Positions 8,543 to 59,274 of a DNA stretch of 64,000 bases are shown here, piece by piece; within the stretch, counting starts at the first letter, position 1, and the number at the start of each line of letters is the position of its first letter. The DNA lies in NCBI GenBank assembly GCA_012517325.1, contig JAAYVF010000025.1, positions 62,001 to 126,000 on the forward strand, read 5' to 3'. The position numbers and the translations under genes are program-made. A model generated the notes under the pieces. It was not told the DNA's origin, did not search any database, and saw nothing but the letters and a program-made list of their open reading frames with translations. The DNA comes from Myxococcales bacterium. GTDB taxonomy: Bacteria; Lernaellota; Lernaellaia; Lernaellales; Lernaellaceae.

Positions 8543-8558
8543 AACAACCGGCCGTCCC

Positions 8559-8586
8559 TTGCGCGAATCGCGGATCGCACTATGTT
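8559..8586 (+). promoter_or_regulatory. Candidate promoter for the subtilase gene
   Basis: TTGCGC (8559-8564) and TATGTT (8581-8586) are 16 bases apart. The predicted start near 8593 leaves a short leader to the ATG at 8619. Confidence 0.35.
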
Positions 8587-8618
8587 ATGGGGGTCGGTTC
8601 GGTAGGCGAGAAAAGACG

Positions 8619-11028: not shown

Positions 11029-11081
11029 TCGTCGCGTCCCGTTTTTTGGATTTTGACCGCCATTTCTCTTTTTCGATTGAC

Positions 11082-11109
11082 AATATATGATGATATCCGG
11101 TTTTATCAA
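11082..11109 (-). promoter_or_regulatory. Candidate promoter for the GT2 gene
   Basis: On the minus strand, TTGATA (11109-11104), a 16-base spacer and TATATT (11087-11082) point leftward. It is back-to-back with the pilB promoter candidate. Confidence 0.45.
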
Positions 11110-11133
11110 ATTGTTAAACCGGGCAACGGCGAC

Positions 11134-11162
11134 TTGACAGCCGGCAGAGCCGGCAGTTACAT
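11134..11162 (+). promoter_or_regulatory. Candidate promoter for the pilB-pilT-pilC-kinase cluster
   Basis: TTGACA (11134-11139), 17 bases, then TTACAT (11157-11162). The -35 is perfect and the -10 is weak. The predicted start near 11169 precedes the GGAGG of pilB. Confidence 0.45.
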
Positions 11163-11221
11163 TCGACTCCGTTAAAATGACGGGGAGTCCAGGGGTAGCC
11201 TATCAGTCGGAGGTTCCTTGA

Positions 11222-12961: not shown

Positions 12962-13087
12962 TGAACCAACCATGACGGTTGTTTCGCGGTACCGCGCCGG
13001 GATGGTTGCTGGTCGCCGCGTTTCGGATGCTCGGGCCGGCGCGACCGAAGGTCGCCGGCCGAAGTATCATGCTGGGAGAATTCACCG

Positions 13088-14170: not shown

Positions 14171-14215
14171 AATATGTTAGGCTTCGCGTGAAATCCCATT
14201 CGGGAGGTTGGCAAG

Positions 14216-15421
14216 ATGCCGGTTTATAAGTGGGAAGGTAAAAGCCGCACGGGGCAGATCATCAAAGGCGAGATGGAAGCCCCGAACGAGGACGCGGTCG
14301 TTCAAAAATTGCGCGGGCAGCAGATTCTGGCCAGCCGGATCAAGCCCGTCGGCAAGAAGGCCTTCAACATTACGATCGGCAAGGAAAAGATCACCGAACG
14401 CGACGTGGTGGTTTTTTCCCGGCAGTTCGCCACGATGATCGACGCCGGTCTGCCGCTGGTGCAATGCCTTGAAATTCTCATCAGCCAGCAGGACAACAAG
14501 ACCTTCGCCAAGATCCTCTCGGAAGTCAAAGGCGATGTCGAAGCCGGTTCGACCTTCGCCAAGGCCCTGGGCAAGCACCCCGAGGTTTTCGACCAGTTGT
14601 ATGTCGCGTTGGTCGCCGCCGGTGAAGTCGGCGGTATTCTCGACACCATCATGAACCGCCTGTCGGCCTACATCGAAAAATCGATGAAACTGAAAAAGAA
14701 GGTCAAGGGCGCGCTGGTCTACCCGTCCATCGTCATGACCGTGGCCATGGGCGTCGCGGCGGTATTGTTGATCTGGGTCATCCCCGTGTTCAAAAAGATG
14801 TTCGAGGACTTCGGCGGCGCCCTTCCCGGACCGACCCAATTCCTCGTCAACATCTCCGAATTCCTGCGCGGCTATTGGTTCATCGTTTTCCCGGCCATCT
14901 TCGGCTTGTACTTCCTCTACAAATACCTGTCCAACACCGAGAAGGGCAGAGTCATCAAAGACGACATCTCCTTGAAACTGCCCGTCTTCGGCGAATTGCT
15001 GCGCAAGGTGGCCGTCGCCAAGTTCACCCGAACCCTCGGCACGATGATCACCTCCGGCGTCCCGATTCTCGACGGCTTGGAAATCGTCGCCAAAACGGCC
15101 GGCAACAAAACGATCGAAGCCGCCATCATGAAAACCAAGGACCGGATCGCCGAAGGTAAAACCATCGCCGAACCGCTCCTCGAATCCGGCGTGTTCCCCG
15201 CGATGGTCTGCCAGATGATCACCGTCGGCGAAGCCACCGGCGCCCTCGACGTCATGCTGGCGAAAATCGCCGACTTTTACGACGACGAGGTCGACATGGC
15301 CACGACCAACCTGACCACCCTGCTCGAACCCATCATGATGGTGTTCCTGGGCCTGATGGTCGGTGGTATGTTGATCGCCATGTACCTGCCGATCTTCAAG
15401 CTCGTGACGGTCATTGGTTAA
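14216..15421 (+). CDS. pilC: Type IV pilus inner-membrane platform protein PilC (GspF family)
   Basis: This 401-aa protein opens MPVYKWEGKSRTGQIIKGE, as PilC proteins do. Two GspF repeats are visible: one around FSRQFATMIDAGLPLVQCL and one around FTRTLGTMITSGVPILDGL. Each is followed by membrane helices, including a C-terminal one (MMVFLGLMVGGMLIAMYLPIF). It anchors PilB and PilT in the inner membrane. GGGAGG lies about 10 bases upstream. The stop overlaps the start of the kinase gene by 8 bases. Confidence 0.95.
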   Translation: MPVYKWEGKSRTGQIIKGEMEAPNEDAVVQKLRGQQILASRIKPVGKKAFNITIGKEKITERDVVVFSRQFATMIDAGLPLVQCLEILISQQDNKTFAKILSEVKGDVEAGSTFAKALGKHPEVFDQLYVALVAAGEVGGILDTIMNRLSAYIEKSMKLKKKVKGALVYPSIVMTVAMGVAAVLLIWVIPVFKKMFEDFGGALPGPTQFLVNISEFLRGYWFIVFPAIFGLYFLYKYLSNTEKGRVIKDDISLKLPVFGELLRKVAVAKFTRTLGTMITSGVPILDGLEIVAKTAGNKTIEAAIMKTKDRIAEGKTIAEPLLESGVFPAMVCQMITVGEATGALDVMLAKIADFYDDEVDMATTNLTTLLEPIMMVFLGLMVGGMLIAMYLPIFKLVTVIG

Positions 15422-17060
15422 CAAACCCACGACCGCCGCCACTTTACGTTCGGACGAACAACTACCCTCCGTCGAGCGGGAACAGATCCTGCAATGGCTC
15501 GCTTTTCTGCGGGTTGTCGTCGCTTTTTTCATTCTCGGCACCACCTACTTTCTCTACCGCTCGCAATCGCTGATCGTTCCCTACAGCCTGATCGGCGTGA
15601 ACGTGCTGGTCACCCTGCTGTCGGCGGTCATGATCGAGCGCCAGGCGAACAACCGCCTGTTCGTCTACTTTCAGATCTACTGGGATTTCGCGTTCGTCAG
15701 CGGGCTGGTGTATTTCACCGGCGGCTTTGACAGCCTATTCAGCTTTTTGTACATCCTGACGATCATCTTCGCCGCCATTCTGACCAGCCGCCTCCATACC
15801 AATCTCATCGTCCTGGGCTGCACTTTCGTTTATTCCCTGATCCTGGTGCTGCAATACCTGCGGGTGGTCAATCCGCTCAACCTCGATCCGCTGGAGGTGG
15901 CGCTGCCCAGCGCCAGCGAGGTGACCGTCAAGTGCCTGCTCAACGCCCTGGCGTTTTTCAGTTCGGGCTTGCTGGCCAGCTACCTGGCGGCCCGCAGCAA
16001 GGAAGCGGCCCGGCAGATCGAACAGCAGCGGCAGGCGATGGACGACTTGCGCAAGCTCAACGACAGCATCGTCCAGTCGCTGCCGATCGGGTTGATCACG
16101 GTGGACGCGGACGGCGTCATCACCTTCGCCAACCGCAACGTCAACGCCATGCTGGGCCGCGAGAACGGAACCTGCCGGGGCCTGAACCTGGCGGAATTGT
16201 TACCCGCGTTGAGCGATCTGGGTTCCCACGAAAAAAACCAGGAAATCGAGCGGCTGTCGGTCCATCGGCAAAAACAGATCCTGGCGCTGACCTTCGCCGA
16301 TCTGCAGGACACGATGGGCCGCGTCACCGGCCGCATGATCACCATGCAGGACGTCACGGCCCTGCGCGAGCTGGAACAGGTGGCCAAATACACCGACCGC
16401 CAGACCGCGATCGCCAAGCTCGCCGCCGGCATCGCCCATGAAATCCGCAATCCGTTGGCCAGCATGTCCGGTTCCATTCAATTGCTGCAAAGCGAATTGA
16501 CGCTCGAACCGATCCACGCGCACCTGATGAACATCGTCTTGCGCGAAACCGACCGGCTCAACAATTTGATCAATGATTTTCTGGCCTATGCGCGCCCCAC
16601 CCAGCGCAAGGACGCCGTCACCGACTTGTCGGCCGTCATCGCCGAGCAACTGGGCGTCCTGGTCAACGATCCGGCTTTTCACGAGGGGATCATCCTCAAG
16701 AAAAACCTTGAAAAAGACCTGATTTGCCGCTTCGATCCCGCGCAAGTACGCCAAATTCTTTGGAATTTGTTCCTCAACGCGCTGCAAGCCATGGAAGAGA
16801 CCGGGGGCACGCTGACGGTTTCCGCCCGTCGTTCCGAACGTCATAGCGGTTTTATCGAAATCGAGATCCAGGACACCGGCAAGGGGATTCCGAGCGAATA
16901 TCTCGGTTCCATCTTCGATCCGTTCTTCACCACCAAGGAAAAAGGCACCGGCCTGGGGCTGACCATCGCCTATCGGATTGTCGAAAACCATGACGGCAAA
17001 ATTTTCGTCGATTCGACTCCCGATCGCGGGACCTCGTTTCATGTGCTGATTCCCGGCTGA
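15414..17060 (+). CDS. PilS-like sensor histidine kinase
   Basis: At 548 aa, the only sensible start is the TTG at 15414, overlapping the pilC stop and implying translational coupling. About six membrane helices fill residues 30-200, as in PilS. A PAS-type domain (about 210-320) leads to the dimerisation box GIAHEIRNPLAS (His about 342), the N box WNLFLNALQAM, the G1 box DTGKGIP, FDPFFTTKEKGTGLGL and the G2 region. In PilS-PilR systems the kinase senses pilin in the membrane and controls pilA through a sigma54 regulator. No PilR gene follows: the next genes belong to an unrelated operon. Confidence 0.88.
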   Translation: MVNKPTTAATLRSDEQLPSVEREQILQWLAFLRVVVAFFILGTTYFLYRSQSLIVPYSLIGVNVLVTLLSAVMIERQANNRLFVYFQIYWDFAFVSGLVYFTGGFDSLFSFLYILTIIFAAILTSRLHTNLIVLGCTFVYSLILVLQYLRVVNPLNLDPLEVALPSASEVTVKCLLNALAFFSSGLLASYLAARSKEAARQIEQQRQAMDDLRKLNDSIVQSLPIGLITVDADGVITFANRNVNAMLGRENGTCRGLNLAELLPALSDLGSHEKNQEIERLSVHRQKQILALTFADLQDTMGRVTGRMITMQDVTALRELEQVAKYTDRQTAIAKLAAGIAHEIRNPLASMSGSIQLLQSELTLEPIHAHLMNIVLRETDRLNNLINDFLAYARPTQRKDAVTDLSAVIAEQLGVLVNDPAFHEGIILKKNLEKDLICRFDPAQVRQILWNLFLNALQAMEETGGTLTVSARRSERHSGFIEIEIQDTGKGIPSEYLGSIFDPFFTTKEKGTGLGLTIAYRIVENHDGKIFVDSTPDRGTSFHVLIPG

Positions 17061-17094
17061 AAAAGCTTTTTGAAATCAGAACTTATTAATCCCA

Positions 17095-17114
17095 TTGTTC
17101 TAATGTAATAACAT
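17095..17114. promoter_or_regulatory. Possible redox-regulator operator upstream of the POR operon
   Basis: TTGTT (17095-17099) and AACAT (17110-17114) flank a 10-base centre. The shorter repeat AATGT/ACATT (17102-17115) is nested in it. The half sites recall the TTGTTAA/TTAACAA boxes of Rex, but the spacing is two bases too long and the palindrome is imperfect. It lies just upstream of the -35. Confidence 0.25.
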
Positions 17115-17125
17115 TTTCATGCCCC

Positions 17126-17154
17126 TTGACAGCGGCAGGCCGAAGAACTAGTAT
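17126..17154 (+). promoter_or_regulatory. Strong sigma70-type promoter of the POR-diaphorase operon
   Basis: A perfect TTGACA (17126-17131), an optimal 17-base spacer and TAGTAT (17149-17154). Transcription should begin near 17161, leaving about a 90-base leader. Confidence 0.7.
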
Positions 17155-17251
17155 TCGCCCCGCGAAAAAGCGCAACCCGGGCCGTTCGCAAAAGACGGAG
17201 GTACGCCTTTTGCGAATATACCCGGCGTGCGCCTTAGGAAAGGGGTCATTA

Positions 17252-17806
17252 ATGATCGAAATTCGTTTTCACGGTCGCGGAGGTCAAGGCGCCGTGACCA
17301 GCGCGGAACTGCTGGCCCAAGCGGCAATCGCCGAGGGCAAGTACGCACAGGCCTTCCCCAGCTTCGGTCCCGAACGGCGCGGCGCGCCGGTTCTGGCTTA
17401 CGCGCGGATCGACGACAAACCGATCCGGCTGCGCCAGGCGATCTATGAGCCCAATCTGGCCATCGTGCTTGAAGAAGCGTTGATGAACATCGTCGACGTC
17501 GAATCGGGCATGGGCGACAAGGGCATCGTCGTGGTCAATACCCACAAGTCGATCGCGGAACTGCGCAAGCGCTACAAACTCAAGGGCCTGGTCTGGCGCG
17601 TCGACGCCACCAAGCTCGCCTTGGAAATCCTCGGCCGGCCGATCACCAACACCACCATGCTCGGCGCGTTGATCCGGGCCTCCAATTGCGTGGAACTGAA
17701 AAGTATGGAAGCTCCGCTCATGGAGCGGTTCGGCAAAATCGGCCCGCGCAACCTCGAAGTGCTCAAACGCGCTCACGCGGAGTCCGTCTCGGAGGATGCC
17801 CAATGA
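17252..17806 (+). CDS. porC: Pyruvate:ferredoxin oxidoreductase gamma subunit
   Basis: This 184-aa protein starts [19 protein letters not shown] and continues [17 protein letters not shown], the signature of the gamma subunit of four-subunit 2-oxoacid:ferredoxin oxidoreductases of the pyruvate type. The ATG at 17252 is preceded by AGGAAAGGGG; longer in-frame starts would lie upstream of the promoter's predicted start site. It is the first gene of a seven-gene operon, and its stop overlaps the next ATG (ATGA). With delta, alpha and beta it catalyses reversible CoA-dependent pyruvate decarboxylation to acetyl-CoA with ferredoxin reduction. Confidence 0.93.
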
Positions 17807-18123
17807 AGACCAAGTTGTTTCCCGCCTGGACCGAGGTGACCCTCGGTTGCGTGGTCCCCGAACCCGGCACCGCCGTCGAATACAAGACCGGTGATTGGCG
17901 CAGCTTCTATCCGAAGACCGACGAGACCAAGTGCGTCGCCTGCGGCCTCTGCTGGATCCTCTGCCCCGACGACTCCCGCCGGTTGGTCAAGCGCCAGAAG
18001 GCCGTCCCGGGCTCGTTGTATGACACCTACTTCGATTTCAACTTCAACTACTGCAAAGGCTGCGGCATCTGCGCCGCGGAATGCCCCACCCAGGCGATCG
18101 TCATGTTGGAGGAGGTCAAATAA
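17803..18123 (+). CDS. porD: Pyruvate:ferredoxin oxidoreductase delta subunit (2[4Fe-4S] ferredoxin)
   Basis: This 106-aa protein contains two CxxCxxCxxxC cluster motifs, CVACGLCWILC and CKGCGICAAEC, each with the trailing Pro region. A 30-residue segment between them is typical of PorD. It passes electrons from the catalytic subunits to free ferredoxin or to a partner. GGAGGA lies 7 bases upstream, and the gene overlaps both neighbours by a few bases. Confidence 0.93.
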   Translation: MKTKLFPAWTEVTLGCVVPEPGTAVEYKTGDWRSFYPKTDETKCVACGLCWILCPDDSRRLVKRQKAVPGSLYDTYFDFNFNYCKGCGICAAECPTQAIVMLEEVK

Positions 18124-19316
18124 TGAAGAACCGGATGGAAGTGGGCAAACCGCTCGGCATCGAGGTCTCGATCGCCCAGGCCGAGGTGGTGGCGCAATGC
18201 GACGTGGATTGCATTGCGGCCTATCCGATCACGCCGCAGACCCACATCGTGGAGCACCTGTCGGAAATCGTTAATAACGGCGAACTGGAAGCCGCCTATA
18301 TCCCCGTGGAATCCGAGCACTCGGCGATGAGCGCCTGCATCGGCACCGCGGCGGTCGGCGCGCGCACCTTCACCGCCACCTGCAGCCAGGGCCTGGCCCT
18401 GATGCACGAAATACTCTACATCGCCTCGGCCATGCGGTACCCGATCGTCATGTCGTGCGTGAACCGGGCGCTCTCGGGCCCGATCAACATCTGGGGCGAC
18501 CAGAGCGACATCATGGCCGAACGCGATACCGGCTGGATTCAGATCTTCACCGAAAACGGCCAGGAAGTGTGCGATCAGACGATCTGCGCCTTCCGCATCG
18601 CCGAGGATCACCGGGTCCTGTTGCCGACCATCGTCAATATGGACGGCTTCCAGATGAGCCACGTGATCGAGCCGATCGTCTTTTACGATACGGCCAAGAT
18701 CCGCGAATTCGTCGGCGTCTACCAGCCGCTGCAGCGCCTCGACCCGCGCGAGCCGATGATGTTCGGCCCGGTCGGCATTCCCGAGGTCTACACCGAAACC
18801 AAGAAAAAGCACGACGACGTGCTGATCAAAAGCCAGGCGGTCATCGAGGAAGTGTGGGCCGAATTCGCGAAAAAATTCGGCCGCGCCTACCACGCGGTGG
18901 AAACCTACCGCGCCGATGACGCCGAGTATCTGCTGCTCACCGTGGGCGGCCTGAGCGAAACCGCCTCGGTGGCCATCGACCGGCTGCGCGAGCAGGGCGT
19001 CAAGGTCGGCCAGATCAAATTGCGCCTGTGGCGGCCGTTCCCCTTCGCCCAGATCAAGGCGGCGCTGGAAGGCGTGAAAGGCGTGTTCGTGTTCGACCGT
19101 TGCCTGACCACCGGCGGCACCGGCGGCCCGTTCGGCACGGAAATCAAGGCGAGCCTGTACAATCTGGCCAAGCGGCCCGTCCTGGTCAATTTCGTCGGCG
19201 GCCTCGGCGGCCGCGACGTCACGGTCGCCAATTTCCGCGACATGGTGCTCAAGGGCATCGGCTACGTCGAGCAGGGACAGGCGCCGGTCTACGAAATGGT
19301 GGGGGTGCGCGAATGA
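18123..19316 (+). CDS. porA: Pyruvate:ferredoxin oxidoreductase alpha subunit
   Basis: This 397-aa protein has the pyrimidine-binding fold of 2-oxoacid oxidoreductases: YPITPQTHIVEHL near residue 35, then ESEHSAMSACIGTAAVGARTFTATCSQGL. The C-terminal transketolase-like domain includes RLWRPFPF and FDRCLTTGGTGGPFGTE. The start ATG overlaps the porD stop by one base, behind GGAGGAGG. It supplies part of the thiamine diphosphate site and the substrate pocket. The YPITPQT motif and the gene order support pyruvate over 2-oxoglutarate, but closely related keto acids cannot be excluded. Confidence 0.93.
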   Translation: MKNRMEVGKPLGIEVSIAQAEVVAQCDVDCIAAYPITPQTHIVEHLSEIVNNGELEAAYIPVESEHSAMSACIGTAAVGARTFTATCSQGLALMHEILYIASAMRYPIVMSCVNRALSGPINIWGDQSDIMAERDTGWIQIFTENGQEVCDQTICAFRIAEDHRVLLPTIVNMDGFQMSHVIEPIVFYDTAKIREFVGVYQPLQRLDPREPMMFGPVGIPEVYTETKKKHDDVLIKSQAVIEEVWAEFAKKFGRAYHAVETYRADDAEYLLLTVGGLSETASVAIDRLREQGVKVGQIKLRLWRPFPFAQIKAALEGVKGVFVFDRCLTTGGTGGPFGTEIKASLYNLAKRPVLVNFVGGLGGRDVTVANFRDMVLKGIGYVEQGQAPVYEMVGVRE

Positions 19317-43091: not shown

Positions 43092-44351
43092 ATGAAGGCG
43101 CGTCAGGCAGGATGGCTGATTCTCTTTTTTCTGCTTTCGATGCTTCTGCTTACCGGCTGCGGCGGCTCGTCCGGGAACGACGCGAGCGACAACGTTTCGG
43201 ACGACGATGACGACGACAATGACGATAACGACAATGACGATAACGACAACGATAACGATAACGAAAATGACGACGACAACGATGACAATAACGACGACGA
43301 TGATGACGACACGACACTGCCGCCGTTGGATTTCCCCGCCTTTGTGAACGATGGACATCTTTACGGTGTCGCTTGTTACATTAACTCATTTTTAATGAAA
43401 ACCAATGGCTGGGAATCCATCGAAGCCCCGACAGCGTTTAATGACTGTAAAATGGTCGATTCGACGAGCGCGGTCTTTTCCCTTGCGGCTGTCGGCAACA
43501 GTCAGGTTTATCTATATTTTGACAGCGAATGGATGGATTTGAACTTTGCAGGACAGTTAGTCGAATATGCGATGCATCCGTTTGTTTTTTTCGATCGTGA
43601 AAACGGCTTTGCCGCTCATTATCGTTATACCTCGGGGATCTGGCAAAACTTCCCCGAGCTCGCGCGCGCGGATCCAATTGCGCCGAACGACGCGTTGCAT
43701 ACCGACAACGACCTTAGTTGTCTGTATCATTGGGACGGCTCGACCAGTCAGCAAATAACCTGCTTGACGGACCATCCGATCAACCAAGGTGTACCGCCAG
43801 AGGATATGCTGACGCTGCTGGCAATAAAGTATTTAGCCCTGGATGACATATGGATTGCGATGAACAATCAATTGTTATGGGCGCCGGTCTACTTCTCTCA
43901 CTGGAACGGCACCGAATGGGACCAGACAATAGAAGTATTCAAATCGGCGGCGAACCTGGAGGAAATATATTTTCACTGGGAATTCCTTTCCGAAAGTGAC
44001 GGTTGGGCGCTCACCAATGCTTCGGACGGGGAATGCGGCGAATATGCAGTGCTGATGAAATATCACGAAGGGGATTGGGAACAGATTGTCAAAGAGCAAC
44101 CGACCGCCCATTACCTTGAGCCAGCTTGTAAACCAACTTTAGCGGAAGATATGTGTAATATTTTTAGCGTAGCGGCTGAGGAGGAAGTATGGATGCGTTG
44201 CGAGCGTCATTGGCGAAACTATCATGAGGATGTACCGTCGGAGCATCGGGATCCGTATTTTCTTCAATTTCGGGAAGGATACTTCAATTTTTGGAGTATG
44301 CATCCTTTCGAAAACGGGATTGTCGCAATGGATGTTAAAGCCAATCCATGA
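43092..44351 (+). CDS. Lipoprotein with Asp/Asn linker, 419 aa, lower-GC body
   Basis: The lipobox is LLTGC (Cys23), and GGGAGGG lies before the ATG. Residues about 34-73 are an Asp/Asn(Glu) linker. The following 345 residues have several Trp, short aromatic strands (VFFDRENGFAAHYRY, YFSHWNGTEWDQTIEVF, FLSESDGWALT) and scattered Cys, suggesting a BNR/Asp-box-like beta-propeller, but no motif is clear. The body is visibly richer in A/T and uses codons its neighbours avoid. I infer a recently acquired domain joined to a local leader and linker. Confidence 0.75.
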   Translation: MKARQAGWLILFFLLSMLLLTGCGGSSGNDASDNVSDDDDDDNDDNDNDDNDNDNDNENDDDNDDNNDDDDDDTTLPPLDFPAFVNDGHLYGVACYINSFLMKTNGWESIEAPTAFNDCKMVDSTSAVFSLAAVGNSQVYLYFDSEWMDLNFAGQLVEYAMHPFVFFDRENGFAAHYRYTSGIWQNFPELARADPIAPNDALHTDNDLSCLYHWDGSTSQQITCLTDHPINQGVPPEDMLTLLAIKYLALDDIWIAMNNQLLWAPVYFSHWNGTEWDQTIEVFKSAANLEEIYFHWEFLSESDGWALTNASDGECGEYAVLMKYHEGDWEQIVKEQPTAHYLEPACKPTLAEDMCNIFSVAAEEEVWMRCERHWRNYHEDVPSEHRDPYFLQFREGYFNFWSMHPFENGIVAMDVKANP

Positions 44352-44481: not shown

Positions 44482-45849
44482 TTAAGGCAGCAGCCGGTCG
44501 GCCAGTTTTTTCCAGTCGGCGAAGGAACGCTCGTTCCATTCGCGGGGGAAATCGAGCCAGTGGCGGTGGACCAGCAGGGTCTTCGGGCCGCTGGCGAGGA
44601 AGCGCAGGCCGGTGAGCGGCGCCTTGCGCATGCCCCACAGCCTTTGCGGCAACGTCGCCGGGCTGATCGACAGCGGCTCGGCGGTCAGGGTGTGGGCCAT
44701 GTCTTCCGGCTGCATGATGCCGTAGCGCATCAGCGGCTCGATGTCGCGCTCCGGGTCGAAGGTTTGCAGAAAGCGGCGGTTGGCGTCGTAAGTGGCCAGC
44801 ACCGCGCCGCGCCCGCGTTGATAGGCAGCCAGCCACGGCCAGAGATTTGCGGTCGTGGCGGCACCGCCGTCGCGCAGGATTTCGGCGGCGTGCCGGGCCA
44901 GCGAGTGCCCGGCCAGCATGCCCGAGGCGATGCCGCTGGCATGCGACGGAATGACCATGCTGGCCGCTTCGCCGATCGCCGCGAACCCGTCGGCCACCAG
45001 CCGCGCGCCGGCGCGATGAATGCGGATCGGGTTGCCGCCGCGAAACACCTCGTCGGTCAGGAACCCCAACCGGTCCGCCAGTTGATCCAATACCTCGTCG
45101 TTGCTCGGCGGCGTGTACGGTTCCTGAATGCCGCTGAGCAGAAACGCGACCCCGCGTTCGACCGAAACGAAATAGCCCAGCGTACTGTAGGCGCCCTGCG
45201 TGCCGATCTGGTGGTGCGAATAGCCGTCGAAGAACCGGCCCTGCGCCGCCGCGGCCGCCGCGCGCTCGCGATCGAGGCGATACAGGCGGCTTTGCGCCAG
45301 CACGTGATCCTCCGGCCGGTCGACGAAATCCAGGCCCAGCCGTTCGGGCAGGCGGGAGAGCAGCGCCGCCGCGTGGCCGGTCGCGTCCACCACCAGCCGG
45401 GCGCGGATTTCGCGTTCGCGGCCGCGCCGATCGCGCAAGACGACACCGGCGACGCGGTCGCCCTCGACCAGCGGCGCGGCCGTCTGTTCGAACAACATTT
45501 CCACGCCGGCGGCCTTCGCATAACCGAGAAAGCGCCGCAGGACGCGGCGGAGTTGAAAGGAATGCAGCGGATGCCCCATGACCACCAGCGCTGGAAAACC
45601 AGCCGGGGTCAGCAGGTAGGAGCCTTTTTGCACGAAAATGAGTTCGTCGTCGCTCGGCGCGGGCACGTCGCAACGGGCGAACACGCCGCACTCAACCTCG
45701 ACCAGACAGGTATGGCCGGTGTCGACCTCCGCCCTGGCCTCGATTAACAGAACGCGCAGGCCGGCCCGGGCGGCGGACAGGGCACCGATCACGCCGGCGG
45801 GTCCGGCGCCGGCGATCAACACGTCGTAAGGAGCGGGAACGCGAGCCAT
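44482..45849 (-). CDS. FAD-dependent oxidoreductase (geranylgeranyl reductase-like)
   Basis: This 455-aa protein starts at 45849 behind CGGAGG. The FAD motif is VLIAGAGPAGVIGALSAARAG near residue 9, with a VVDATGHAAALLSRL-type second motif and DGFAAIGEAASMVIPSHASGIASGM, the third FAD contact typical of the geranylgeranyl reductase/UbiH-type group. It could reduce isoprenoid chains, hydroxylate aromatics, or act as a dehydrogenase. It stands alone between two lipoprotein genes facing other ways. The family call is safe and the substrate is open. Confidence 0.82.
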   Translation of the reverse strand: MARVPAPYDVLIAGAGPAGVIGALSAARAGLRVLLIEARAEVDTGHTCLVEVECGVFARCDVPAPSDDELIFVQKGSYLLTPAGFPALVVMGHPLHSFQLRRVLRRFLGYAKAAGVEMLFEQTAAPLVEGDRVAGVVLRDRRGREREIRARLVVDATGHAAALLSRLPERLGLDFVDRPEDHVLAQSRLYRLDRERAAAAAAQGRFFDGYSHHQIGTQGAYSTLGYFVSVERGVAFLLSGIQEPYTPPSNDEVLDQLADRLGFLTDEVFRGGNPIRIHRAGARLVADGFAAIGEAASMVIPSHASGIASGMLAGHSLARHAAEILRDGGAATTANLWPWLAAYQRGRGAVLATYDANRRFLQTFDPERDIEPLMRYGIMQPEDMAHTLTAEPLSISPATLPQRLWGMRKAPLTGLRFLASGPKTLLVHRHWLDFPREWNERSFADWKKLADRLLP

Positions 45850-46043
45850 GGCACCTCCGAAGGAACGCGTGGAGCGGATTAAATAACACGATGCGTCAAA
45901 AAGGGGTAGGCCATTCGCCGGCCCGGTGGTCAAGGGTTCTTCCCGCGCCGGCGCCAGCCGACATTTCTTCTTTATCGTCTCCCTCTTCCGTGTAAAATGA
46001 AAAACCGCCGGCGCCGGATGGCCGCCGGCGAGGAGAAGCGATC

Positions 46044-47588
46044 ATGCGCGAAAGAAAAATATTGTCGGTGCTGTTGCCGGTCCTGCTTTTTACTTTCGGC
46101 TTCTGCCTGCTGGCCTGCGACGACACGGCCGATTCCGCAGCCGATTCGAAACCGATTTCGGACGACGACGACAATGATGACAATGATAACAACGACAACG
46201 ACGACAACGACGACAACGATAACGATGACAACGACGACACCACGCCGCTGCCGCCGCCGACCGTCAAAACGCTGAGCTGGATCACCGTGAAGGACAGGCG
46301 GCTGGTCGACGAGTACGGCCGGCACTGGCTGCCGAACGGTATCAACGCCCGCGTCGCGGGCTTGTTCGACGGCAACGATTATTGGAGCCAGGCGGTCGCC
46401 GAATACACCGATTGGGACGCGGCGGCGATGGTCCGCGACGGTTACAGTCTCTTTCGCCTGCCGATCAACTGGAGCGGCATCGAGCCGATCGAGGGCGAAA
46501 TCGACGAGGCGTATCTGCAAAAAATCGACCAGGTGGTGGCCTGGGCGGGCGACGCCGGCCTGTACGTGCTGATCGACTTTCACCAGGACAAATACTCGAA
46601 GTACATCGGCGATGACGGCGCACCGCTGTGGGCGCACTACCCGCCCTACGTGCCGGGCGACGACAAGGTCGATATCTCGTGGCGGCTGGCGCTGGCGGTG
46701 TTCGCGTTTTTCACCGATTACCAGAACCTGCAGGAACGTTGGCTGCCCGCGTGGCAGGTGGTCGTCGCCCGCTACGCCGCGCTGCCGCAGGTGATCGGCT
46801 TCGAGCCCTACAACGAGCCGGAATCGATTTTGCCCGACTGGCTCTACGAATTTTATTACAAGGCGGCCAGCGGCCTGCGCGCTATCGACACCCGGCACAC
46901 GCTCTGGCTGGAACCCGATGTGTTGCGCAACAACCTGCTGTGGGCGCCGCTGCGCCGCGAACCGTTTCCCGACGACAACCTCGTCTACGAACCGCACCTG
47001 TACCCGAATTTCATCGGCATGAATTACGAAACCGTCGACGAATGGCTCGAAGCCATCACCCCGACCTACGACCGGGCGCTCACCGAAGCCGCGTCGTGGG
47101 GCAATGCCGCGACGGTCGTCGGCGAGTGGGGCACGCATCCGGGCGACGCGTACGCGCCGGCGTATTTCGCCGCGACGCGGCGGTTGGCTGACGAGCGCGG
47201 CATCGGCCTGGCGTTCTGGGTCTGGAAGGAAAAAAGCAGCGGCAACTGGGGCCTGTTCGATTACGATCCGGACACCGACACCTGGACCCAACGCACCGGC
47301 CCGGGCATGGACGAGCTGCTGCGGCCGACGATCCTGGCCGTGCCGGGTCGCCTGATCGCCCAGACCTGGGACGCGGAAACCGGCGAACTGACCGTCGAGT
47401 TCGCGGCCGCCGGCGGGGAGGGCCCGCCGCTCGTCTACTTGCCGGAAGGCGTTTTCCCGGACGGCTTCACCGCCGATTTAAACGGCGAAAGCCTTTCCCT
47501 GACGGTCGATGACGAAACCCGCCGCGCCCTGGTACCCTGGGATGGCCAGGCGGGGGAATTCACCCTGACGATCCGAGCGACGGACTGA
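46044..47588 (+). CDS. GH5 endoglycoceramidase-like lipoprotein with Asp/Asn linker
   Basis: At 514 aa, the lipobox is CLLAC (Cys25), followed by an Asp/Asn linker (about 40-66). The GH5 barrel includes FRLPINWSGIEPIEGEIDE, LYVLIDFHQDKYSKYIGDDG, the acid/base Glu258 in YNEPES, and the nucleophile Glu361 in GEWGTHPG. The HQD..S.YI.GDGAP pattern is that of endoglycoceramidases, which cut the glycan from glycosphingolipids. A beta-sandwich of about 95 residues closes the protein. GGAGAAG lies upstream. It would sit on the cell surface; true substrates may differ from eukaryotic glycolipids. Confidence 0.85.
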   Translation: MRERKILSVLLPVLLFTFGFCLLACDDTADSAADSKPISDDDDNDDNDNNDNDDNDDNDNDDNDDTTPLPPPTVKTLSWITVKDRRLVDEYGRHWLPNGINARVAGLFDGNDYWSQAVAEYTDWDAAAMVRDGYSLFRLPINWSGIEPIEGEIDEAYLQKIDQVVAWAGDAGLYVLIDFHQDKYSKYIGDDGAPLWAHYPPYVPGDDKVDISWRLALAVFAFFTDYQNLQERWLPAWQVVVARYAALPQVIGFEPYNEPESILPDWLYEFYYKAASGLRAIDTRHTLWLEPDVLRNNLLWAPLRREPFPDDNLVYEPHLYPNFIGMNYETVDEWLEAITPTYDRALTEAASWGNAATVVGEWGTHPGDAYAPAYFAATRRLADERGIGLAFWVWKEKSSGNWGLFDYDPDTDTWTQRTGPGMDELLRPTILAVPGRLIAQTWDAETGELTVEFAAAGGEGPPLVYLPEGVFPDGFTADLNGESLSLTVDDETRRALVPWDGQAGEFTLTIRATD

Positions 47589-52615: not shown

Positions 52616-52676
52616 TTTGACTTTCCGTCGGCGCCGGCCGGATACTCGACCGGATTCGAAAGAAAGGGACCGCGAA

Positions 52677-54251
52677 ATGGCGCCGGATCGAGGGCCGAGT
52701 GAAAAGCCGGCCGGAAAAAGCGACCGTCCGACCCTCGTGCTCGCCGGGTGGGTGACGCTGTTTCTGCTGCTGACGCTGGTCGGGGCGTGGCGCGTTTTGC
52801 CCACGCCGTTCTCGGGGCCGCATTCGGGCGTCTCGGCCCATTTTTGCGTCATGGCGCGGACCTTCGCCCACGACGGCCTCGCGGCGCGCGGTTTCGTGCC
52901 GCTCCAGAACAATCCGCCCTATGGCCGCGAGTTGGATCTCTCGACGCACTGGCCGCCGTTGTTCACGATTTTGTTGAGCCTGTTGTTTCAGGTGTTCGGC
53001 GCGACCGAACTGACGGCGCGCGGCTTCATGCTGCTGATTCTGCTGGGCAACGCGACGCTGATTTTTTTGTTGTTGCGCCGAGTCGACGGGACGCCGGCGG
53101 GCTTGCTCGGCGTACTGGCGTTTCTGGCCCAGCCGATCGTGATGATGTTCGGCCTGCTGGTGATCCACCTGCACCTGGCGATTTTTTTCACGCTGGCCGC
53201 CGGCTATTGCCTGCTGAACGTCGAGCGCGACGGTCGCCGGTGGGGCTTCGCGGCGGTCGGGCTGGCCTATCTGGCGGTCTGGACTTCCTGGGAGCCGCTG
53301 CTGTTTTTCTTTTGCCTGTGGCTCGCCGGTTGGTGGTTTCAGGGCAAGTCGCTGCGCCGCTGGGGGCTGGCTTGCTGCGCGGCCGCGCTGCTGGCGATCG
53401 CCTCGGTGTTCGCGTTGTATTTCGTCCAATATCCCGACCGTTTTCTCGAACTGACGCACGTCGTGCGCTTCCGCCTCGGCCTGCAGAGCAATTACGCGCC
53501 CGGGTGGGCCGACACGCAGCCGGCGACCGCCGCGGTGCTGTTCCGCTATTGGAAGTACCTGCTGCTGCTCGAGCCCTTGAGCCTGTTGGCGCTGGGCACG
53601 CTGATCGTCCTGGGCCTGCGGGCGCGGCGCGCCCTGGAGGGCAACCCGACGGCGATTCTGCTCGGCGGCTGGTTCGGGTTGTGGGCGGTTTGGTTCGGGC
53701 TGTTGCGCGGCCACGGCTATTTTCACGAGTACCAGCTCATCATCGCGCTGCCCGTTTTGTCGTTGGGCGCGGGCCTGGTCTTCGCCGCGCTGATGCGTCT
53801 GGCGCGGACCCGCTTCGCCGGCGAAACGGTGGGCGTGGTGGTGCCGCTGGTGGTGGCGCTGGTCGTGCCGTTTCTGCTGAGCCGCGAACTGGCGGTCGAC
53901 ACCGTCGTCAAGCTGCGCGTACCCGAAGCGGTCGATCCGCTGGTCACGCACGGGCGGCACATCCGCGCCGCGACGCCGGCCGACGCCGTGGTGCTCTCGC
54001 CCTACGGCAACATGTTGGTCGCCTTTTACGCGCAGCGGCACCAGATCCGCGACGTCAAGGACGATGACGCGCTGGACCGCGTCCTGGAGCGCGCGGACGC
54101 CTTGTTCGCCTCGACCGCGCCGGTCTATCTCGCGCTGCTGCCGTCGGATCTGCCGAAGTTTTCGCGCGCCCTGAGCCGCTATACCGTGGCGGCGATGGAC
54201 CACGAACTGCTGTTGCTCGCGGTGCGCGACCGCCCGCCCCCCGCCATTTGA
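52677..54251 (+). CDS. Multipass membrane protein, GT39-like (glycosyltransferase-type)
   Basis: I start at the ATG at 52677 (524 aa) behind AAAGGGA; a TTG at 52617 adds 20 charged residues. About ten membrane segments follow. The first external loop contains HDGLAARGFVPLQNNPPYGRELDLSTHWPP, the loop type seen in polyprenyl-sugar transferases (acidic and His residues before the second helix). The C-terminal soluble part (RAATPADAVVLSPYGNM...) resembles the small lumenal domain of the 28917 protein. The target of any transfer is unknown. Confidence 0.7.
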   Translation: MAPDRGPSEKPAGKSDRPTLVLAGWVTLFLLLTLVGAWRVLPTPFSGPHSGVSAHFCVMARTFAHDGLAARGFVPLQNNPPYGRELDLSTHWPPLFTILLSLLFQVFGATELTARGFMLLILLGNATLIFLLLRRVDGTPAGLLGVLAFLAQPIVMMFGLLVIHLHLAIFFTLAAGYCLLNVERDGRRWGFAAVGLAYLAVWTSWEPLLFFFCLWLAGWWFQGKSLRRWGLACCAAALLAIASVFALYFVQYPDRFLELTHVVRFRLGLQSNYAPGWADTQPATAAVLFRYWKYLLLLEPLSLLALGTLIVLGLRARRALEGNPTAILLGGWFGLWAVWFGLLRGHGYFHEYQLIIALPVLSLGAGLVFAALMRLARTRFAGETVGVVVPLVVALVVPFLLSRELAVDTVVKLRVPEAVDPLVTHGRHIRAATPADAVVLSPYGNMLVAFYAQRHQIRDVKDDDALDRVLERADALFASTAPVYLALLPSDLPKFSRALSRYTVAAMDHELLLLAVRDRPPPAI

Positions 54252-54261
54252 ATTTCGTCGG

Positions 54262-55659
54262 TCAGCCGAGAATCGAAGCCGCGCGGCGCAGGATGATTTT
54301 CACCTGGCTGAACGACCGGATTTCGCCGAGCAGGCCGCGGATGATGCGCGGGCGCAGGTAGAAGCGCAGGTTGGCGCGGCGGATGCGCCGCTTCCAGTCG
54401 CGCAATTCCAGGCTGGGATGGGCGAAGGGAAATTCGTGGATGTACAGCCGATCGGTCGACAGATCGGCCAGCGCCCCTTTTTCGCGCAGTTCCTCGAAAA
54501 CGCGGGTGCCGGGTAGGGGCAGGAAATTGAAAAAATTGGCCCGATCGATCGGCAGTTCCAGCGACAACCGCACCGTCGCCTCGATGTCGGCCGTCGTTTC
54601 GCCCGGATAGCCGACGATGAAAAAGCCGGTCAGGCGGATGCGGCTGTTTTCGCGGATCATCCGGGTTTGGCGGCGGATCGTGTCGGTATCCAGGTGCTTG
54701 TTCATCAGTCCGAGCACCCGGTCGCTGCCCGATTCGATCCCCAACGCCATCGAGTAACAGCCCGCGCTCTCCAGCAGGCGCACCAGCTCCGGCGTCATGG
54801 TGTCCAGCCGCACCCCGGAAGTCAGATTCAGCCAGTACCGCCGTCCCGCCGCTTGCAGGGAGTCGCACAGTTCGCGCAAGTAGTCGCCGTGCACGACCAT
54901 CGCGCTGTCCTGGAGGTGAAATTCGCGGAAGCCGTAGCGGTCGGCCAGGTAATGCATTTCGGCGACGACTTGCGCCGCCGGCCGTCGCCGCACCCGCCGG
55001 CCGAACAGCCGTTCCGAGGCGCAGAAACGGCAGGCATGCGGACAGCCGCGACCGGTGATGATCGGCGCCACCCGGTCCTCGCGGGAAAAAATGCCGTTGG
55101 GCTGCAGGGGGTAGCGCTCCGGCCGCAACAGATCCCAGGCGGGCATCGCCGGCAGTTCCGCCGGATCGGGAAACCGGCGGGGATTGAGGCGGATCGTTTC
55201 GCCGTCGCGCCAGACGAGGTTTTCCAGCGTCGCGGCGGCGAACAGCGCCGGATCGTCCAGCAGCGCCGCGGCCAGGCGGGGCAAGGCGGCTTCGCCCTCC
55301 CCCAGGATGCCGGCGGTCAGTTCCGGAATCGCCGCCATCGTTTCGGCCGGCAAGGCGGTGAAATGCGGCCCGCCCATGATCAGCGGTCGCGCCGGCCGGT
55401 CGGCTTTCAGCGCGCGGGCGATCGCCGCGGCCGCGGTGAATTCGCAGGAATAGGCCGTCAGGCCGACGAGATCGTAGGGCCGGGCGGTTTCGGCGACCGC
55501 CTCGGGCGACAGATCGGCCAGGGCGACGTCGAGAATGGCCGGTTCAAAACCGGCGTCGCGCAAGGAGGCGGCCAGATAACCCAACCCCAGGTGCGGCTGC
55601 AGGATATACGGGGATTTTCCTGCCTTGCGCGGCGCGATCAGGAGAATCGTGGCGCCCAT
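54262..55659 (-). CDS. B12-binding radical SAM protein
   Basis: This 465-aa protein starts at 55659, 2 bases after the upstream radical-SAM gene ends. The N-terminal cobalamin-binding fold has YLAASLRDAGFEPAILDVALADL, IMGGPHFTALP and GILGEGEAALPRL. The radical SAM motif is GCPHACRFCAS (CxxxCxxC), followed by GIESGSDRVLGLMNK and FFIVGYPGET. Such enzymes methylate unactivated carbons or perform ring and bond formation. The C-terminal 80 residues are basic and helical, like those of the 57104 protein. It is the second gene of a two-gene minus-strand operon. Confidence 0.9.
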   Translation of the reverse strand: MGATILLIAPRKAGKSPYILQPHLGLGYLAASLRDAGFEPAILDVALADLSPEAVAETARPYDLVGLTAYSCEFTAAAAIARALKADRPARPLIMGGPHFTALPAETMAAIPELTAGILGEGEAALPRLAAALLDDPALFAAATLENLVWRDGETIRLNPRRFPDPAELPAMPAWDLLRPERYPLQPNGIFSREDRVAPIITGRGCPHACRFCASERLFGRRVRRRPAAQVVAEMHYLADRYGFREFHLQDSAMVVHGDYLRELCDSLQAAGRRYWLNLTSGVRLDTMTPELVRLLESAGCYSMALGIESGSDRVLGLMNKHLDTDTIRRQTRMIRENSRIRLTGFFIVGYPGETTADIEATVRLSLELPIDRANFFNFLPLPGTRVFEELREKGALADLSTDRLYIHEFPFAHPSLELRDWKRRIRRANLRFYLRPRIIRGLLGEIRSFSQVKIILRRAASILG

Positions 55660-55661
55660 CG

Positions 55662-57002
55662 TCAGCCCGCCCCCTGGCATCCGGCGGCCGAAATCGCCGT
55701 CGCCTCGCGATCACGTTCCAGGGCGTTGTAAACGCAGGAAGGCCCCAGACCGTCGGCGGTGATGTAAAACTTGTTGCAATGCAGGGCATCGGCGAAATCG
55801 AAAACGTCGGGATCGCGGAAGTGTTCGATCACCATCGTCAGCAGGTGCGGGTTGTACGGCATGTCGTCGAGGTTGCCGACGTGGCGAAGCATGGCGCCCA
55901 GCGCCCGGCGATGTCGCCAGGCGAGCGGCAGCGCCCGCGGCGAAAGCAGCCGGTTCAGCGGCATGAAATCGCGCTCGGCCAGCGCCAGCGCCATCGGATA
56001 GAAACAGGTTTTCGGCTGGTAGTCGGCGTTTTTGGTCGTTTGCCACAAGCGTTTGGAAATATTCATGAAGGCCAGGAAATCGTCGGGCGTCAGGCGGCCG
56101 CCGCTCCAACGGGCCAGTTCCCGCATGACGGCAAAGGCGGTCGTGGCGGCCAAGCCGGCGTTTTCCGGTTCGCGACCCAAGCGGGAAGCGGGCAGAAACG
56201 ACACTTGCTGAATGCGCGGCGTGCGGATCGCCAGATCCATCACCGGACCGATCTGATCCTCGTTGACGCCGGACAGCACCATGCAGGCCAGCAGGATCTT
56301 CATCTCGTTTTGCACGAGATTTTCGAGCGCCCGTTGTTTTTCGTCCAACAAATCCAGGCCGCGCAGCCGGCGGTAGGCCTCGCGCGAAAAACCGTCGAAT
56401 TGCAGAAAGACCCATTCCAGGCCGGCGGCCTTCAATTCGCGGACGTAGGCGGCGTCGCCCAGGCGCAGGCCGTTGGACACCAGCTTCAGCCGATAACCGC
56501 GCTCGCGCAGCAGGCGGACGATCGCGGGCAGATCCTCGCGCAAGGTCGGCTCGCCGCCCTGCAGAAACACCACAGGCAGCTTGCCGGAAGTCGACCGCGC
56601 CAGCGTGTCGAACCAGGCGGTCAGGGTCGGCAGATCGGGTTCCGGGATGAGGGTGTCGTTGGCGGAGGCGAAACAATGCGGGCAGTGCAGATTGCAACGG
56701 CCCGTGACGTCGAGCAGGACGCCGCGCAGCGGCGGCAGTTTTTCGCCGTGCCGGTAAAAGCGCCGGCGCGAAGATCCGTCGTGCGGGCCGACGATTTTCA
56801 AGACGCGGTCGAAAAAGCCGGCGTCCTCCGGATAAGGCGCTTCGCGGGAACCGCAGGCCGCGCAGGTCGAGCGAAAAAACAGTTGGCCGTCACGTTGGAA
56901 AATCGCGGCGTCGACGGTGGCGCCGCATTGCCGGCAAGTGGTTGTAGTCCGTCGCAATTCCGCCTGGTTCGGTGTCGCTGTTGTTTTGTCCGAAGCTGTC
57001 AT
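55662..57002 (-). CDS. Radical SAM protein, MJ0619/tetraether-lipid-synthase-like
   Basis: At 446 aa, an N-terminal CxxC pair at 23/26 and another at 47/50 form a small metal-binding domain (CRQCGATVDAAIF...CAACG). The radical SAM site is CNLHCPHC at 103-110, with FLQGGEPTLREDLP following. The C-terminus has further Cys in TCFYP, HCNKFYITADGLGPSCVYN and GCQGAG. From memory, an N-terminal CxxC ribbon plus a late C-x-Y...DG...P-x-C-x-YN region characterises MJ0619/Tes-type enzymes that join lipid chains; here the Pro is missing but the rest fits. It is divergent from another B12 radical-SAM gene. Confidence 0.72.
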   Translation of the reverse strand: MTASDKTTATPNQAELRRTTTTCRQCGATVDAAIFQRDGQLFFRSTCAACGSREAPYPEDAGFFDRVLKIVGPHDGSSRRRFYRHGEKLPPLRGVLLDVTGRCNLHCPHCFASANDTLIPEPDLPTLTAWFDTLARSTSGKLPVVFLQGGEPTLREDLPAIVRLLRERGYRLKLVSNGLRLGDAAYVRELKAAGLEWVFLQFDGFSREAYRRLRGLDLLDEKQRALENLVQNEMKILLACMVLSGVNEDQIGPVMDLAIRTPRIQQVSFLPASRLGREPENAGLAATTAFAVMRELARWSGGRLTPDDFLAFMNISKRLWQTTKNADYQPKTCFYPMALALAERDFMPLNRLLSPRALPLAWRHRRALGAMLRHVGNLDDMPYNPHLLTMVIEHFRDPDVFDFADALHCNKFYITADGLGPSCVYNALERDREATAISAAGCQGAG

Positions 57003-57053
57003 ATTGTTACCCGTTTTTCCCGCCCGGCCACACTGGGTCGGTGGAAATGAATC

Positions 57054-57074
57054 AACTATTGTACAATAATAGTT
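57054..57074. promoter_or_regulatory. Inverted repeat in the divergent radical-SAM promoter region
   Basis: AACTATT (57054-57060) and AATAGTT (57068-57074) flank a 7-base centre GTACAAT. It is AT-rich inside GC-rich DNA and lies between divergent start codons (57002 and 57104). It could be an operator or hold the -10 elements of both directions. Confidence 0.5.
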
Positions 57075-57103
57075 TACCGAAGAGCAGGGAGGACGGCTGA
57101 TTA

Positions 57104-58483
57104 ATGGATCGCGTTTTGCTGGTGCGTTCGCCGGCCGGCCGCTTGTACAAAACAGCCGGTCCGGACCCGGGATTGGGTTATCTGAAAACCGCCCTGGTCC
57201 GGCAAGGCGCGCTGACGCTGGTCTATGACGCCTGGCAGCTCCCGCGATTCGTGCCCGATTTCTCCCGCGTGGTGCGCGACTTCGTGCCCGATGTAGTCGG
57301 TTTCAAAATGTGCACCGCCGACCTTCCCGAAGTGACCCGCCTGGTGGATCGGACGGCGGCCAACGCGCCGGACGCGGCGATTATCGTCGGCGGCCCGTAT
57401 CCGACAGGGATGCGCGAGAATCTGTTTCAAGCGCTGCCGCCCGAGGTTGCCGCCGGTTTCGCGGGCGAGGCCGAGCGGGCTTTGCCGGCCTGGCTGCGCG
57501 CCCGTCGTGGCGACGGCGATCCGGCGGCGGTGCCCGGTCTGATCGTTCGGGAAAACGGCGGCGTCACGGTGCGACCGCAGGATTTCCCCGCGGACCTGGA
57601 TGCGCTGGATTATCCGGATTACGCCGACATGCCATTGTCCCGTTATCCGGTCGATTACGAGGGCCACCCGTACTTGCCGGTGGTGACGACTCGCGGCTGT
57701 CCTTACGGCTGCGCCTACTGCTCGGCCGGCCTGATCAACGGTCGCCGGCTTCGGCGGCGCTCGGCGGAGCACATCGCGGAAGAGGTTTACCGCTACCGCC
57801 GGGACTTCGGCGCCGAACATTTCGACATCGCCGACGACAATTTCACGCACGTCAAGGAACACGTGCTGGCGGTTTGCGAAGCCTTGCAGCGGCGCGTTCC
57901 CGGAATGAAATGGCGTTGCCCCAACGGCATCCGGCTCGATACGTTGGACGAGGATATCCTGCGGGCGATGGAAGGAGCCGGCTGCGAGGAAGTTTATGTC
58001 GGAATTGAAACCGGCTCGGAGCGCGTGGCCGCCGCGATGAACCGCGGCGTCACCCCGGCGGTGCTGCGGGAGAAAGTGGAACTCCTGCGCCGGGTGACGA
58101 AATTCCGCGTTTTCGGATTTTTTCTGATCGGCTTCCCGACCGAGGAAGAAGCGGATCTGCGCGCCACGCTGCGGCTCGCGCTCGGCCTGCCGCTCGATCT
58201 GGCGTCGTTTTTCTATTTTACGCCGCATCCGGGCACGCGCATTTTTCAGGAACTGGTCGGCGCCGGCGCGATTCCCCCCGTCGGCGATCACGGTTTTTAC
58301 GAGCGGCTCGGCCGCTTGCCGCGCCGGGTTTCCGAGCGGCGATTGCGCTGGTGGCAAAAATACGCCTACGCGCGCTTCTACCTGCGGCCCCGGCAGTTGC
58401 GGCTTTTGTGGCAGCGGATGAAACAACCCGCGCAGGCGAGGCGACTGTTGCGCCGGATCCTCAACGTCTGGTTGGAACGCTGA
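57104..58483 (+). CDS. B12-binding radical SAM protein (second)
   Basis: At 459 aa, the cobalamin domain (about 1-165) includes GLGYLKTALVRQGALTLVYDAW, IIVGGPYPTGM and GFAGEAERALP. The radical SAM core has TTRGCPYGCAYCSAG (CxxxCxxC) near 200, DIADDNFTHVKEHVL, EVYVGIETGSERV and FGFFLIGFPTEEE. The closing 70 residues are rich in Arg and Trp. GGGAGG lies upstream. It is an architectural twin of the 54262 protein, on the opposite strand, and is followed two bases later by a GT2 gene. Confidence 0.9.
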   Translation: MDRVLLVRSPAGRLYKTAGPDPGLGYLKTALVRQGALTLVYDAWQLPRFVPDFSRVVRDFVPDVVGFKMCTADLPEVTRLVDRTAANAPDAAIIVGGPYPTGMRENLFQALPPEVAAGFAGEAERALPAWLRARRGDGDPAAVPGLIVRENGGVTVRPQDFPADLDALDYPDYADMPLSRYPVDYEGHPYLPVVTTRGCPYGCAYCSAGLINGRRLRRRSAEHIAEEVYRYRRDFGAEHFDIADDNFTHVKEHVLAVCEALQRRVPGMKWRCPNGIRLDTLDEDILRAMEGAGCEEVYVGIETGSERVAAAMNRGVTPAVLREKVELLRRVTKFRVFGFFLIGFPTEEEADLRATLRLALGLPLDLASFFYFTPHPGTRIFQELVGAGAIPPVGDHGFYERLGRLPRRVSERRLRWWQKYAYARFYLRPRQLRLLWQRMKQPAQARRLLRRILNVWLER

Positions 58484-58485
58484 CC

Positions 58486-59274
58486 ATGACGGCGACTACC
58501 TACTTCGTCATCCCGATATACAACGAAGCCGGCAACATCGGCCGGGTGGTTTCCGATATCGCGACGCGATTTCCGGCCGGCGACTGGCGGGTCGTGGTCG
58601 TGGACGACGGCAGCCAGGACGAATCGGCGGCCATTCTGGCCGGTTTGTCGACGCGATTCGGCGACCAGGTGGTCGTCGTCACCCACGAAATCAATCGCGG
58701 CGTTCCCGCGGCTTTGTCCTCGGGATTCGGCCGCGCGGCGCAAATGGCCGGCGACGGCGATTACCTGCTTTGCATCGAGGGCGACGGCACGAGTAATCCG
58801 GCGCTCTATGAACCGATTCGCGCCGGTCTGGCCGCCGGCAACGAAATCGTGATCGCTTCGCGCTATATCCCCGGCGGCGGCTGGGTCGGATTTCCCTGGC
58901 ATCGCCGACTGATCAGCCGGGTGGGGAATTGGGGCCTGCACCGCTTGTTTCCCTATCCGCACGTCACCGATTTTTCCATTTTTTATCGCGGTTACCGAAT
59001 GAGTTTGGTGAATAAGGTGCTGGCCAGATGGGGCGCTCGGGCTTTTTCCGGCCGATTTTTTTCGGCGAATACCGGTTTTCTGTTTTGCTGTTTGTTCGAA
59101 CGGCCGCCAGTGGCGGAAGTGGCTCATTTCTACGTCTACAACTTGAAGCGCAGCATGACGAAGTTTCGCTTGCGACAGGCGTTGTACGGTTATTTGCCGT
59201 TAATCGCCCGGATTTCTCCTTGGCGGTTGCGCCAAATTTGTCTGGCTGAACGAGCAGTGAAATTTAAAAATTGA
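58486..59274 (+). CDS. Family 2 glycosyltransferase (polyprenyl-phosphate sugar synthase-like)
   Basis: At 262 aa, FVIPIYNEAGNIGRVV starts the GT-A fold, followed by VVVVDDGSQDESAA and the metal-site region CIEGDGTSNPA. GSR is replaced by ASRYIPGGGW. No membrane helix is evident, though the middle is hydrophobic. The ATG lies 2 bases after the radical-SAM stop, so they are co-transcribed. It could glycosylate a polyprenyl phosphate or a lipid made or modified by the radical-SAM enzymes (inference). Confidence 0.85.
   Translation: MTATTYFVIPIYNEAGNIGRVVSDIATRFPAGDWRVVVVDDGSQDESAAILAGLSTRFGDQVVVVTHEINRGVPAALSSGFGRAAQMAGDGDYLLCIEGDGTSNPALYEPIRAGLAAGNEIVIASRYIPGGGWVGFPWHRRLISRVGNWGLHRLFPYPHVTDFSIFYRGYRMSLVNKVLARWGARAFSGRFFSANTGFLFCCLFERPPVAEVAHFYVYNLKRSMTKFRLRQALYGYLPLIARISPWRLRQICLAERAVKFKN

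Follow-up and report, generated by a model that had tools for sequence, protein, structure and literature searches.

By fold, the closest described relative of the central protein of the locus reported here is the tetraether lipid synthase Tes (MJ0619, GDGT-MAS; PDB 7tol and 7tom; NCBIfam model NF045702), which is, as far as we know, the main structural model for the joining of two unactivated sp3 carbons via an auxiliary iron-sulfur cluster. In Tes, amphipathic helices build a second lipid pocket. The labile ligand of the cluster is Met439, which is conserved across 1,000 archaeal homologues, and the M439A variant is still active (PMC9433317). A bacterial membrane-spanning lipid synthase, Mss, is also known and has the Tes architecture by description (PMC13274423). 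The ring synthases GrsA and GrsB, whose substrates are GDGT lipids, belong to the radical-SAM proteins too and probably carry one cluster only (PMC11186832). A further point of comparison is the two-domain architecture of the class-1 cobalamin-dependent radical-SAM enzymes (MgmA, TsrM, BchE and HpnJ) and the related AprD4.

The window, i.e. the whole 64,000 nucleotide stretch of DNA analysed, covers positions 62001–126000 of its contig and is part of a 5.2-Mb draft genome of the candidate phylum FEN-1099, which is Ca. Lernaellota (PMC13248872). Four genes of the window form two divergent, translationally coupled pairs and make up one conserved cassette. On the minus strand, the gene for a 446 aa Tes-like radical-SAM protein (55662–57002) is followed downstream by that of B12a, a B12-binding radical-SAM protein (472 aa open reading frame, 54262–55680), whose probable start at 55659 comes directly after the stop codon of the Tes-like gene. 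A divergent intergenic region of 101 bp (57003–57103) separates this pair from the plus strand pair, which consists of B12b, a second B12-binding radical-SAM protein (459 aa, 57104–58483), and a GT2 glycosyltransferase (262 aa, 58486–59274; TGACCATG). The GT2 start is probably 58486 and not 58351, as an ATG is found two bases past the B12b stop. No more than a few bases separate the stop codon of the leading gene from the start codon of the next one in either pair. Pfam shows B12-binding and Radical_SAM domains in both B12 proteins and a GT2 domain in the last open reading frame.

An ORF check found the four open reading frames where a preliminary description of this DNA had placed them. That description had two B12-binding radical-SAM proteins flanking a third radical-SAM enzyme, and a GT2 coupled to one of them, and both statements are borne out. 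It also placed a GT39-like membrane protein just before the cluster. A hydrophobic membrane protein of 544 aa is present at 52617–54251 on the plus strand, but it is convergent with the cluster, its similarity to PMT_2 is weak (20.2 against a Pfam cut-off of 26.1) and its membership in the cluster is doubtful.

The 446 aa protein displays the Tes fold but falls outside the Tes family. Pfam gives a Zn_ribbon_HMPTM domain (32.1 bits, cut-off 27) together with Radical_SAM. A PDB profile search with the proteins of the phylum matches Tes (7tol) with an E-value = 1.4e-82, the C-terminal domain included, and 7tol is by far the top match and the only near-full-length one. The AlphaFold model of the protein (pLDDT 81, pTM 0.83), when compared with PDB folds, also gives 7tol first (E-value = 5e-30, TM 0.76), with MoaA second at 7e-8. 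Thus the profile match and the model match together identify the fold as that of Tes, at 23% identity in the fold alignment. The family scores are low, however: the Tes model gives 158.4 bits against a cut-off of 450, and the top NCBIfam match, the radical SAM (seleno)protein TrsS (NF045646), gives 193.2 bits against a cut-off of 490. There is no Pfam match to a SPASM domain, and the Tes and TrsS models are the top scores in NCBIfam.

A comparison of 36 rows, MJ0619 and other homologues, shows which Tes residues are kept. The N-terminal rubredoxin-like ribbon is present as CX2CX20CX2C (C23, C26, C47 and C50). As the fourth ligand of this rubredoxin-type site the window protein has Cys, where most relatives have His, the Tes form being CX2CX20CX2H. 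The radical-SAM motif CX3CX2C is kept at C103, C107 and C110. Near the C-terminal end, C333, C409 and C423 align with Tes C338, C455 and C470 in the profile alignment, the 36-row alignment shifting C333 by one column, and Tyr413 sits at the position of Tes Tyr459. These three cysteines and the tyrosine are kept in nearly the whole subclade of the window protein, and the cysteines are the putative ligands of a C-terminal cluster. The ribbon and late cysteines, which the preliminary description had likened to MJ0619/Tes, thus do align with those of Tes.

Other Tes positions are changed. Glu393 is found at the position of Met439, and a Glu is present here in 12 of 12 members of the window subclade, whereas the Met is kept in each of the ten proteins, Tes and long bacterial homologues, used for comparison. 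Gln268 of Tes is replaced in the subclade as well. The cap segment, from the first C-terminal cluster Cys to residue 439, has 60 residues in 11 of the 12 subclade members as against 97–112 in Tes and the long bacterial homologues, and is approximately 40 residues shorter in the window protein than in Tes. The [4Fe-4S]N cysteines (Tes C73, C77 and C80, with a His) are absent from the window protein and its relatives in the phylum. In relatives L136 and L137 from outside the phylum, CX4CX2CX2H is still present at this N-terminal site; L135 shows a related Cys motif and is without two of the three C-terminal cluster cysteines. The loss of the N-terminal cysteines says little by itself, because it is shared by the long bacterial homologues of the Tes clade.

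The tree of the family shows three clades. One contains Tes and the long bacterial homologues (639–894 aa; a provisional label, their identity as Mss not being confirmed), with a support of 97/96. The second is TrsS-like (98/96), a label that is likewise provisional since none of its rows reach the TrsS cut-off. The third is the clade of the window protein, with 16 rows (99/99) and an inner subclade of 12 (100/98). Alternative orders of the three clades give AU p values of 0.35–0.50, and when Tes and the 12-row subclade alone are constrained as one clade the AU p value is 0.051. The assignments of the protein to Tes (158 against 450), to TrsS (193 against 490) and to the SPASM maturases are each ruled out by score, tree and residues.

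Membership in the Tes family, which the preliminary description proposed and for which it suggested an HMM search, is therefore not upheld by the score of 158.4 bits, the separate clade, the Glu for Met439 and the short cap. The same description would have counted a grouping with SPASM peptide maturases or other non-Tes families, or a lack of the auxiliary-cluster cysteines, against its proposal. The protein is not a SPASM maturase and keeps the late C-terminal cysteines, but it lies outside the Tes clade and has no N-terminal cluster cysteines, so that about half of this case against the proposal is made and the proposal as a whole is borne out in part.

A true membrane-spanning-lipid synthase, joining two phospholipid tails as Tes and Mss do, with the B12 proteins methylating or cyclising the product, would account for the Tes fold, the C-terminal cluster cysteines and the Tyr459 equivalent. 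The N-terminal Cys loss does not exclude such an enzyme, given the Tes-clade homologues with the same loss, and Mss provides a bacterial example. However, the long bacterial homologues keep Met439 and the long cap and group with Tes, unlike the window protein, in which Gln268 is lost as well; the AU result for Tes and the 12-row subclade also counts against this reading. As far as can be judged from the sequence, the short cap speaks against the binding of a pair of complete lipids side by side as in Tes, and it is the stronger counter-argument because Met439 can be mutated without loss of activity. PF09989, the Ger/PlsA-type ether-lipid reductase, was not found in the genome, with T. maritima positive as a control, and this counts against ether forms only. 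Thus the bacterial route to membrane-spanning lipids put forward in the preliminary description is weakly supported by the sequence and is quite improbable.

The window protein shares the ribbon and the radical-SAM core with TrsS, its top NCBIfam match, and the AU values for the order of the clades are compatible with a TrsS-like role, in which the protein would mature some small molecule or a metal cofactor and would have no lipid substrate. This alternative is unlikely. The score is far under the TrsS cut-off, the rows lie in a clade apart from the TrsS-like rows, the CC pair of the TrsS-like proteins is missing, and the C-terminus, with PFCxYN and its Tyr, is nearer to that of Tes. Furthermore, no description of TrsS function was found; it is listed only as a selenoprotein (PMC13188914).

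A further difference from Tes is the gene neighbourhood, as the neighbours of the window protein are B12 radical-SAM genes. A Tes-like relative is found in all seven genomes sampled from the phylum, and in 7 of its 9 family loci in the phylum a B12 radical-SAM gene lies within 2 kb, where 7–9% would be expected (binomial p = 1.6e-6, a test that ignores clumping and relatedness). The arrangement of Tes-like and B12 genes is more than chance. B12 radical-SAM genes number 46–69 per phylum genome, and because they are so common they need not all act on lipids.

The best non-self matches of the other cassette proteins in the phylum all fall in one contig, C292 of genome G005, which is from another genus of the same family-level group as the window genome. 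These are 399 bits for B12a (runner-up 284), 501 bits for B12b (runner-up 285) and 119 bits for the GT2 (runner-up 101), and they are the strongest evidence for the conserved neighbourhood. The G005 cluster has two Tes-like genes in tandem and, with the gene order shuffled, several B12 proteins together with a methyltransferase and a GT2. Outside the phylum, genome G125 has a Tes-like gene, a gene for a second B12 protein (B12c) and a B12a homologue as a single same-strand run, and in G262 the Tes-like gene adjoins B12c. Relatives of B12c lie next to Tes-like genes in G006 and G193 as well. The G125 locus has genes for catalase, hybrid-cluster protein and argininosuccinate synthase nearby, none of which hints at a substrate. 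B12a relatives in G224 and G082 are situated beside a radical-SAM gene, another B12 protein and a lipid-A-type acyltransferase, with a GT2 as well in G224. The acyltransferase context is the main hint from gene context of a lipid near these families.

B12a and B12b have the two-domain architecture of the class-1 cobalamin enzymes but, in NCBIfam, they fall under the cut-off of every named family. No Grs model is present among the NCBIfam matches listed for the cluster proteins. The named relatives of B12a in NCBIfam act on peptides, tetrapyrroles, sugars and hopanoids. The model of B12a (pLDDT 85) shows a class-1 fold, and the nearest folds are MgmA, TsrM and AprD4 (TM 0.72 for AprD4). With these nearest folds, B12a may carry out methylation or other radical reactions.

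AprD4 is an aminoglycoside enzyme, and GT2 genes are found near several B12a relatives. Both observations favour a cassette for a glycan or secondary metabolite, in which a sugar or a polyprenyl-linked oligosaccharide would be modified by the GT2 and the B12 proteins and would also be the substrate of the Tes-like protein. However, no glycosyltransferase was found among the G125 neighbours checked, and we know of no precedent for a Tes fold acting on a sugar substrate. This reading is doubtful.

The preferred reading, which is tentative and falls just short of being probable, is that the cassette carries out radical C-H functionalisation of a lipid-like substrate. The fold, the cysteines, the gene coupling and the conserved neighbourhood are observed; the substrate class, the reaction, the roles of the B12 proteins and the glycosylation step are conjectural. 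The Tes-like enzyme would generate a 5′-deoxyadenosyl radical at the CX3CX2C cluster, and this radical would take a hydrogen from a hydrophobic substrate (a fatty acyl, prenyl or polyprenyl chain) at a carbon that is not activated. A C-terminal [4Fe-4S] cluster with C333, C409 and C423 as ligands, and with Glu393 replacing the labile Met439, would then deal with the substrate radical, and the outcome could be a C-C bond, a C-S bond or a carbon functionalised in some other way. B12a and B12b may methylate this molecule or cyclise it, and the GT2 may add a sugar to it. No lipid-specific enzyme is found within the cassette itself. The central enzyme appears as a distant and altered relative of Tes within a conserved set of radical enzymes, which may well act on a greasy molecule.

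The lipid background of the genome unexpectedly includes a gene of the GGGP-synthase (GGGPS) family, located on a different contig (PF01884, 105 bits; TIGR01768, 140.7 against a cut-off of 113). At this locus GGGPS comes directly before a B12 radical-SAM gene; next are the genes of a PEMT-like methyltransferase and of a protein of the geranylgeranyl-reductase family (157.6 against a cut-off of 158.8), and then three further B12 radical-SAM genes. G006 shows the same arrangement, and G002 and G003 show parts of it. No GGGPS was found in G001, G004 or G005 (the last 84% complete), three of the seven phylum genomes, all with the Tes-like clade, and it is thereby ruled out as a required partner of the clade. 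PF13685, used in the search for G1PDH, matches 13 of 14 control genomes and hence does not discriminate. The geranylgeranyl-reductase-type FAD protein that the preliminary description put 9 kb from the cluster is present in the window (44482–45933), approximately 8.3 kb away with several genes between, but it is under both curated cut-offs (DGGGPL_reductase, 132.8 against 580; GG-red-SF, 72 against 158.8). It is also dissimilar to the reductase of the GGGPS locus, and a direct link to the cluster is not supported.

A more specific form of the lipid reading is speculative and has a low probability: a third class of Tes-fold enzymes, with Glu at the ligand position and dedicated B12 partners, would, in FEN-1099 and a small number of further bacteria, make a cross-linked or branched glyco-lipid not described before. 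Isoprenoid glycerol lipids could be the starting material of such an enzyme in FEN-1099, given the locus of GGGP synthase, geranylgeranyl-reductase-family protein and B12 radical-SAM genes in the same genome. Should the product be a lipid, unusual membrane lipids of anoxic settings would have a further source, with a bearing on lipid biomarkers.

A bacterial clade with the Tes fold and predicted cluster, a changed labile ligand and a shorter lipid pocket offers a natural test of what lipid coupling needs, and the conservation of the B12 partners suggests that this poorly characterised phylum has a radical pathway of several steps. Not every bacterial homologue of Tes merits annotation as a membrane-spanning-lipid gene. 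A scan of viral contigs gave only weak, partial radical-SAM matches, and the scan of genome contigs gave three loci only, all of the same phylum.

Homologues scoring above the curated cut-off for Tes, the tetraether lipid synthase, are found in four bacterial genomes of other families (L140, L141, L142 and L143). Among relatives of the window protein, locus L022 carries an overlapping tandem pair of Tes-like genes (positions 9023–11609). Because each product shows only about one third identity to the window protein, the sequences suggest that the two may have different roles. The Tes-like gene of L135 (about positions 7434–8699, minus strand) encodes a Glu subclade member in which only one of the three C-terminal cluster Cys is kept; Ser and Asp occupy the other two positions. 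In L029 (G003, contig C12) the Tes-like gene is present as two overlapping open reading frames, positions 9451–10715; this split is a frameshift or an assembly error.

B12-type radical-SAM matches number 46–69 per genome of approximately 5 Mb in all seven phylum genomes examined, and the genes frequently form tandem runs, e.g. L025 positions 12428–18476. The source genome itself carries, on contig C6 (L174 positions 9325–18856), a GGGP-synthase family gene cluster that is conserved in L175, L176 and L177. Its partners are a geranylgeranyl-reductase-family protein, a PEMT-like methyltransferase and four B12 radical-SAM genes. The cluster is possibly a locus for isoprenoid glycerol lipids, here in a phylum of bacteria.

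Within the window, positions 46044–47588 encode a secreted protein that combines GH5 and Glyco_hydro_5_C domains, a pairing reminiscent of endoglycoceramidases. An Asp/Asn-rich, lipoprotein-like leader precedes the GH5 part. In both this protein and that encoded at 43092–44351, the N-terminus is lipoprotein-like and leads into long stretches of Asp/Asn.
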